A stretch of DNA of 64,000 nt. Source: Malaciobacter mytili LMG 24559. GTDB lineage: Bacteria > Campylobacterota > Campylobacteria > Campylobacterales > Arcobacteraceae. The notes beneath the pieces are model-generated. The model was not told the DNA's origin. It worked only from the letters and a program-made list of their open reading frames with translations, and did not search any database. The stretch is from NCBI RefSeq assembly GCF_003346775.1, contig NZ_CP031219.1, positions 1,426,001 through 1,490,000 on the forward strand. The letters are read 5' to 3'. This document shows, piece by piece, positions 391-1,449 of this stretch; position 1 is the first letter of the stretch; each line of letters starts with the position of its first letter. The position numbers and the translations under genes were made by a program.

Positions 391-408
391 ACTATATATT
401 TGCTAAAT

Positions 409-452
409 TGGTTGCGGAAACAAGATTTGAACTTGTGACCTTCGGGTTATGA
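409..452 (-). pseudogene. Truncated tRNA-fMet (3' half only)
   Basis: This stretch is identical to the 3' 44 nt of the intact initiator tRNA at 1373-1449: CCA end, acceptor strand, T-arm, variable region and anticodon 3' strand. At the anticodon loop the match stops abruptly and the sequence that follows does not resemble a tRNA 5' half. No cloverleaf can form. It is best read as the distal attachment-site copy left by integration. Confidence 0.9.
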
Positions 453-481
453 AAAACTTGTACACCCAAACAACGGACAGA

Positions 482-487
482 ATTATA
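482..487 (-). promoter_or_regulatory. Candidate -10 box inside the insert, for tRNA-Met/Thr/Gln
   Basis: On the minus strand a perfect TATAAT lies about 30 bp upstream of the truncated tRNA-fMet and 90 bp upstream of tRNA-Met. No good -35 hexamer is present at the right distance. If active, it would drive the distal tRNAs that the insert separates from the operon promoter at 1553-1581. Confidence 0.4.
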
Positions 488-537
488 ATAAAAAAAACTT
501 AGCAAAAACTTAAATTTTTTGATTTTTTAAATTAAAT

Positions 538-1068
538 TTATAAAATTACTTGATAGTTTATTTCTATATTTTGGTTTTTTTGAAGTTCATATTTTGCTTT
601 ATTAATTGCTTCAATAAAAGCTTCATTTATTTCATTGTAGTTACTTTTTTCAATTATATTAAGTTCTGACAATTCATTATTATCATTAATTCTGAATTTT
701 ATTGAGATAAATTCATTGATTTTTCTTTTGTATATTTTTTTTAATTCTAAATATTTTAATACAATAATATGTGGCTCATTGCTTTTTATATTCTTTACTT
801 TATTTTCATACTCTTTTTTATAGAACATATTTGCTTGACTTATATTATTTCTTATAAAGTTCATTCCATTTATAAGACCTTCTATTTTTTCTGCTTCTAT
901 TTTTCCATCTTCTATTGTTACATTTTTTTCTTCTTCTCTAATAACAAGGTATTTTTTAGTTTTAGGTTGTTCTAATTTAGATAAATCTTGATTTAATATA
1001 CTATCTTCTAGACTACTACTAAATAAAATATTTGATGTTAATAAGCTTATTATTAATATTTTTTTCAT
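538..1068 (-). CDS. Secreted protein with TonB-C-like C-terminus, unknown role
   Basis: The protein has about 176 residues starting at MKKILIIS. The open frame extends 26 codons further upstream, but that part is low-complexity and the Met chosen here begins a typical signal peptide ending near FSSS; no strong Shine-Dalgarno sequence is visible. The middle is lysine- and glutamate-rich. The last ~60 residues (around IKFRINDNNELSELNI and IEINYQVIL) resemble the TonB C-terminal fold, which normally contacts TonB boxes at the outer membrane. There is no proline-rich linker, and after signal cleavage no membrane anchor, so it is not a canonical TonB. It is the only gene of the tRNA-fMet insert. 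The TonB-C assignment is by eye and moderate. Confidence 0.6.
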   Translation of the reverse strand: MKKILIISLLTSNILFSSSLEDSILNQDLSKLEQPKTKKYLVIREEEKNVTIEDGKIEAEKIEGLINGMNFIRNNISQANMFYKKEYENKVKNIKSNEPHIIVLKYLELKKIYKRKINEFISIKFRINDNNELSELNIIEKSNYNEINEAFIEAINKAKYELQKNQNIEINYQVIL

Positions 1069-1370
1069 TTTTTTACTGTTTGTACCTTTTCTAAGTCTAT
1101 AAATATTATATATGTTGGAGGAATAATTAATAAAGAAAAAAAACAATAATATTTTAAAAACTTAGCTATTTATTATAATTTATGTTTTAACGCTAATTAT
1201 ATATACCTTTTTGTATATTTTCCCTTAAAAAATGGTTTAAAAAATGTCAAGAATATTATATGAATATAGTTGTATAAATTAAAATAAACTTTCATTTCGT
1301 TTACTTCCAAATGAAACATAAAAACTTAATTTTGATTTTAATTTAAAGTTGTAGAATTTTATTAGATTTT
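1069..1370. other. AT-rich non-coding stretch within the insert
   Basis: No coding frame is convincing here. An 8-bp inverted repeat (1290-1297 and 1309-1316, 11-base loop) lies between the intact tRNA-fMet and the TonB-C-like gene. It could serve as a transcript-end hairpin for the Gln-fMet transcript or as a binding site. Nothing else stands out. Confidence 0.4.
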
Positions 1371-1372
1371 AT

Positions 1373-1449
1373 TGGTTGCGGAAACAAGATTTGAACTTGT
1401 GACCTTCGGGTTATGAGCCCGACGAGCTACCTGGCTGCTCTATTCCGCG
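1373..1449 (-). tRNA. tRNA-fMet (CAT), initiator, intact
   Basis: A 77-nt cloverleaf on the minus strand with the initiator signatures: unpaired C1-A72 at the acceptor end, three consecutive G-C pairs in the anticodon stem, anticodon CAT and encoded CCA. Its 3' half is the target of the 46-bp repeat that bounds the adjoining insert. It lies 12 bp downstream of tRNA-Gln copy 2 in the same transcript. Confidence 0.97.

Follow-up and report, generated by a model that had tools for sequence, protein, structure and literature searches.

Results

A half-tRNA repeat encloses a single gene

The window analysed here is a 64,000-nucleotide stretch of the Malaciobacter mytili LMG 24559 genome (contig NZ_CP031219.1, positions 1,426,001 to 1,490,000), an assembly made up of a 2.87-Mb and a 170-kb contig; all positions below count from the first letter of the window. 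A perfect 46-bp direct repeat occupies 407-452 and 1371-1416, both copies reading on the minus strand. It corresponds to the 3′ half of tRNA-fMet, running from U33, within the anticodon loop, through CCA and on for another 2 bp (AT). Only the copy at 1371-1416 lies within a complete gene, the full tRNA-Met(CAT) that ARAGORN places at 1373-1449 (-), with the initiator hallmarks of a C1:A72 mismatch and three G-C pairs (GGG/CCC) in the anticodon stem; the other copy stays a half. The ARAGORN neighbors are Gln, Thr and Met on the left, the last being an elongator gene at 314-390 (-), and another Gln on the right, at 1462-1536 (-), so that the insert parts the elongator tRNA from fMet.

Between the repeat copies lie 918 bp with one open reading frame of at least 100 codons (538-1068, -; 176 aa from its ATG). 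At 18.5%, the insert is poorer in G+C than every one of 204 segments of its size sampled across the 64 kb (mean 27.2%), and 453-1370 encodes no integrase. The initial annotation had described this layout of initiator-tRNA half repeats around a single gene, with one full tRNA and no integrase inside, and the coordinates and ARAGORN agree with it. The repeat does not reflect generic tRNA similarity, since the neighboring elongator tRNA-Met matches it at only 67%. Its sole other match in the genome (up to 3 mismatches) is a second complete tRNA-fMet at C1:2056752; because that gene differs at three positions, the local repeat was not copied from it. We also considered an assembly artefact and rejected it, as the assembly has two contigs and the relatives agree.

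The tRNA-fMet gene is a recurrent integration site

Tyrosine-integrase recombination within the anticodon loop of a tRNA gene restores the tRNA and displaces the old 3′ half, the principle of tDNA islands (PMC4383910). We scanned 104 Arcobacteraceae genomes for tRNA-fMet 3′ halves without a 5′ half and found them in nine (G000, the M. mytili genome, and G002, G004, G018, G061, G068, G069, G089 and G097). Eight of the nine cases share one locus, next to tRNA-Gln and ribBA; the contig of G097 does not show the locus. In the eight other genomes, as in M. mytili, the anticodon loop is the precise endpoint of the repeat. A sample of 399 genomes from the order added no displaced fMet half outside the family, and in a collection of named genomes the pattern appeared in Malaciobacter halophilus DSM 18005 (G002) and a few other Campylobacterota assemblies. 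The tRNA-fMet gene beside ribBA is thus a recurrent integration site in Arcobacteraceae, and the earlier view that the initiator tRNA is an uncommon target does not hold for this family. Nor need loss of this gene be lethal, as had been suggested, because integration regenerates it and the genome has a second fMet gene.

Comparison with relatives also revealed the site in its empty and otherwise occupied states. In one genome of the same genus (G003, locus L034), the Gln-Thr-Met-fMet-Gln array is unbroken, which confirms that the M. mytili insert splits such an array. Five other genomes (G004, G018, G061, G069 and G089) carry integrase-encoding prophages between half-tRNA repeats, in keeping with the proposal that the locus arose by tRNA-targeted integration. 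G068 has other cargo again, a 5.7-kb element with a different integrase between the half and the full fMet (L095:11000-17400), so the site accommodates elements of several kinds. The G068 integrase is 55% identical to one adjoining a displaced fMet half in an Epsilonproteobacteria metagenome-assembled genome (L107).

Of six genomes of the genus, three (G001, G005 and G004; L031, L036 and L035) have an export operon (HlyD, ABC and two permease genes) separating Met from fMet. It was rejected as part of the element, having no att repeats.

The T-stem of the fMet gene at this locus varies among species of one genus, with compensated pairs (ACAAG/CTTGT, GCTAG/CTAGC, GATAG/CTATC). Overwriting of the gene by phage-borne 3′ halves could be one cause. 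The complete fMet and the displaced half of G002 differ in the T-stem (ACAAG/CTTGT and AGTGG/CCACT), as expected if the two 3′ halves differ in origin; both halves in the M. mytili window are identical.

Intact prophages share the target and its surroundings

The five prophages are syntenic and 12-14 kb long; each encodes a tyrosine integrase, and all sit in the same fMet gene beside Gln and ribBA (L059:1728-15836, L060:1602-15708, L035:1449-13578, L061 and L062). G004 has both the ABC-transporter operon and a 12.2-kb element, the latter lying between its fMet and the displaced half, with a 52-nt repeat containing one mismatch; the element encodes a tyrosine integrase, Rep, a phage lysozyme, a collagen-like fibre and a repressor. 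Reading inward from the half tRNA, the shared gene order begins on the minus strand with genes for secreted proteins (four of five prophages), for a membrane protein (three of those) and for a CI-like repressor. It continues on the plus strand with early genes, followed by CII-like, integrase, Rep and lysozyme genes, conserved proteins, the collagen fibre and the complete fMet. Conserved proteins of the prophages include ones of 265 aa and of 360-383 aa.

These prophages are poorly recognized by reference collections. Most of the conserved proteins of the virion region have no PHROG match, and we saw no Zot, terminase or packaging ATPase in the five; the search for a Walker-A ATPase among their open reading frames of at least 60 aa gave one chance match only, in a collagen fibre. 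The G018 Rep weakly matches the inovirus-type Rep of 11-kb Synechococcus phages. Scans of viral contigs with the window ORF, the G004 Rep, an integrase alignment and a Rep alignment returned no match, and the same was true of genome contigs scanned with the integrase alignment. The body of literature that we searched held nothing corresponding on tRNA-fMet or Arcobacteraceae prophages. The virus family to which the insert points appears undescribed, and the five prophages are possibly an undescribed, perhaps single-stranded DNA, family of temperate phages.

The M. mytili insert retains vestiges of such a phage

The closest relative of the insert is the M. halophilus element (G002; L032/L100), which also ends in a half tRNA. 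Next to the displaced half, the distal arm of the M. mytili insert (453-537, -) is 82% identical to G002 over the 62 nt past the half tRNA. Within it, the 23 nt at 467-489 (CAAACAACGGACAGAATTATAAT) recur unchanged in G002, and a search allowing up to 2 mismatches found them in none of the other 102 family genomes. The 176-aa gene follows at 538-1068 (-); G002, G018 and G089 each have a homolog in the corresponding position, the latter two within intact prophages of another genus. In G018 and G089 the homolog adjoins the half tRNA and lies between it and the repressor and integrase (36-39% identity, E 1e-17 to 1e-19). In G002 it lies between the half tRNA and the CI-like repressor (39% identity).

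Upstream of the gene, a frame at 1169-1065 (-) corresponds to the last ~34 codons of a 105-121-aa lysogeny membrane-protein gene. It ends in SLLIIPPTYIIFIDLEKVQTVKK and a stop, aligned to SLIFLPPTAILFDDIKSTLKIEK of the G018 membrane protein, and its score of 53 is the best of 1659 window segments against that protein, at the expected place and in the expected frame. The TGA of this vestige overlaps the ATG of the 176-aa gene (ATGA), and the same overlap joins the homologous gene to the membrane gene in the G018 and G089 prophages and is also present at the start of that gene in G002. A second vestige, at 1174-1258 (+), is homologous to the early-operon leader and early-gene start of G002 (L032:2390-2473; 85% over 60 nt, E 1.9e-11), scoring 76 where the best unrelated position in the window scores 36. 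The early gene opens with an ATG at 1244 and stops after 12 codons.

The repressor expected between these two vestiges is missing, as are the integrase, Rep and structural genes expected beyond the early-operon remnant; lysozyme is also absent. Searches of the M. mytili genome for a G004-type Rep (E 1e-3) and for a G004-type integrase (E 1e-30) found neither. A 350-aa Xer-like tyrosine recombinase encoded at 33385-34437 (-) of the window is apparently unrelated to the fMet integrases. The remaining AT-rich DNA at 1259-1370, presumably the second deletion junction and the proximal arm, has no significant match to the right arms of seven elements (G002 was best, and 18 of 300 shuffles did as well).

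In sum, the insert has a full tRNA at one end and a displaced fragment at the other, an empty site in a relative, the target locus of the family and a repressor-side operon whose distal end carries an intact secreted-protein gene with a vestigial neighbor. Lacking an integrase, Rep, lysozyme and structural genes of its own, it is a remnant of a tRNA-integrated element and not a functional member of the family.

The surviving gene encodes a putative secreted protein

The 176-aa protein has a signal-peptide-like start, a coil and a weak C-terminal match to TonB_C (19.2 bits, below the Pfam cut-off of 24.6); in its relatives this end likewise matches TonB_C weakly. Secreted proteins with TonB_2 matches above the cut-off occur adjoining the repressor of the G061 prophage (39.4 bits) and just outside the half tRNA of G068, on the host side (36.7 bits). 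A profile comparison of the two TonB-like groups (A5-A6) was not significant (probability 1.6%, E 0.03). An AlphaFold model built from a two-sequence alignment was poor (mean pLDDT 48); its terminal helix-strand-strand-helix-strand arrangement would fit a TonB-C-like domain, but a model of such low confidence is no evidence for one. A fold search of the PDB with the model gave no meaningful match, and PADLOC contains no defense family for TonB-C-like proteins. In G102, a homolog (L063:9079-9642) lies directly after an Abi_2 abortive infection gene, the pair spanning L063:7945-9642, and the 18-kb locus holds no tRNA gene.

The surviving gene points the same way as Gln-fMet on its upstream side and Met-Thr-Gln on its downstream side, and we found no terminator, so transcription might read through into it from the tRNA promoter. 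The promoter that it had originally probably disappeared together with the repressor region. Since secreted TonB/TolA-C-like proteins recur beside the repressor, a lysogen-expressed envelope function is suggested, with superinfection exclusion as the most likely candidate. The gene is probably one of lysogenic conversion or superinfection exclusion.

Discussion

Our results make it very probable that the insert is a decayed temperate phage of ~12-14 kb, belonging to the tRNA-fMet family of Arcobacteraceae, which entered the gene through its tyrosine integrase and then suffered at least two deletions. The odd half-tRNA repeat would then belong to a prophage that has shrunk to a single gene and its att sites. 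Integration would have taken place by recombination in the anticodon loop, with the phage-borne 3′ half restoring the tRNA (1373-1449, the attL side) and the old half being pushed to the far end (407-452). One deletion would have removed the repressor and most of the membrane-protein gene. Another would have taken the whole stretch between the early operon and the tRNA, with the integrase, replication and structural genes in it. The survivors would be the two half-tRNA repeats, the distal arm, a single intact repressor-side gene, the tail of its neighbor and a scrap of the early operon. The layout of the integration site, its relatedness to intact prophages and the vestigial genes can be read from the DNA itself; the order of the deletions, the expression of the surviving gene and the role of its protein are inferred. 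The same element at an intermediate stage of decay appeared in no genome examined. With no mismatch yet between the 46-bp repeats, either the insertion is not necessarily old or gene conversion keeps the copies alike.

The initial annotation had offered two explanations, a collapsed island or a very small cassette mobilized in trans. The gene vestiges favor the former. A minimal non-autonomous cassette or satellite, moved by the integrase of a related phage that recognizes the half-tRNA att sites, would account for an intact gene being kept although the phage genes were lost, and with perfect core repeats and a distal arm conserved in G002 such an integrase might still recognize the insert. 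However, a streamlined cassette would not need the truncated ends of two phage genes. The 23-nt arm sequence occurs once in the M. mytili genome and once in one other of the 104 family genomes, and the host has neither an integrase of the family (E<=1e-30) nor Rep. We regard this explanation as improbable and mobilization in trans as unsupported. By its gene content the insert is non-autonomous and would be unable to move unaided; it is a prophage remnant, and probably a dead one.

Still less probable is descent from another type of fMet-targeting element, such as the 5.7-kb island of G068. That genome has a different integrase and cargo at fMet, with its TonB_2-domain gene just beyond the half tRNA on the host side. 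Yet the gene, the membrane-gene tail and the early-operon scrap of M. mytili match the phage layout of G002, G018 and G089, not that of G068, and in G002 the CI-like repressor is followed by the start of a CII-like gene, 54% identical to its counterpart in the G061 prophage. The alternative that would have undone the integration model was tandem duplication, in which the tRNA array doubled, one fMet copy decayed later and the ORF is an ordinary chromosomal gene. The genome does hold a second Gln-Thr-Met-fMet array, 94% alike over 149-452, but prophage synteny and the intact, insert-free array of G003 refute duplication. The anticodon-loop endpoint shared with the eight other genomes, the phage vestiges upstream of the ORF and the fact that its nearest homologs in this arrangement are prophage genes argue the same way, leaving this alternative a negligible chance.

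We therefore favor a decayed phage, which can be set beside known cases. As in the Islander class (PMC4383910), a tRNA gene is split and regenerated, a 3′ fragment is displaced and the crossover falls in the anticodon loop, a recognized subsite; the M. mytili insert differs in having no integrase, in its remaining 0.9 kb and in its initiator-tRNA target. Partial tRNA genes likewise mark past integration by mobile elements elsewhere (PMC9897764), whereas in the present case relatives reveal the intact element that was the source. With the five prophages the insert shares the target gene and its chromosomal place, but they are complete, with repressor, CII-like, integrase, Rep, lysozyme and collagen-fibre genes and the conserved proteins. 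The M. halophilus element shares the half-tRNA end, the 23 arm nucleotides, the TonB-C-like gene and the early-operon leader. It differs in having the CI-like and CII-like genes and a displaced half unlike its own fMet in the T-stem. Its contig ends after the CII-like gene, so the rest of the element, including any integrase, lies out of sight.

In M. mytili, the surviving gene might be read from the tRNA promoter to give a secreted, possibly TonB/TolA-C-like protein, which in the intact phage would probably alter the lysogen envelope or exclude related phages. As the only gene to outlive the decay, it is a candidate for a beneficial lysogenic-conversion gene. A bolder and rather doubtful proposal is that the Arcobacteraceae initiator tRNA is home to undescribed small temperate phages without a recognizable packaging ATPase, whose lysogens secrete a TonB/TolA-C-like protein that blocks related phages, and that in M. 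mytili this immunity gene outlived its phage, embedded in a tRNA operon. The insert itself is mostly ordinary. Its broader interest lies in the recurrent use of an initiator-tRNA site in Arcobacteraceae and in the phage family behind that site, which current phage libraries hardly recognize.
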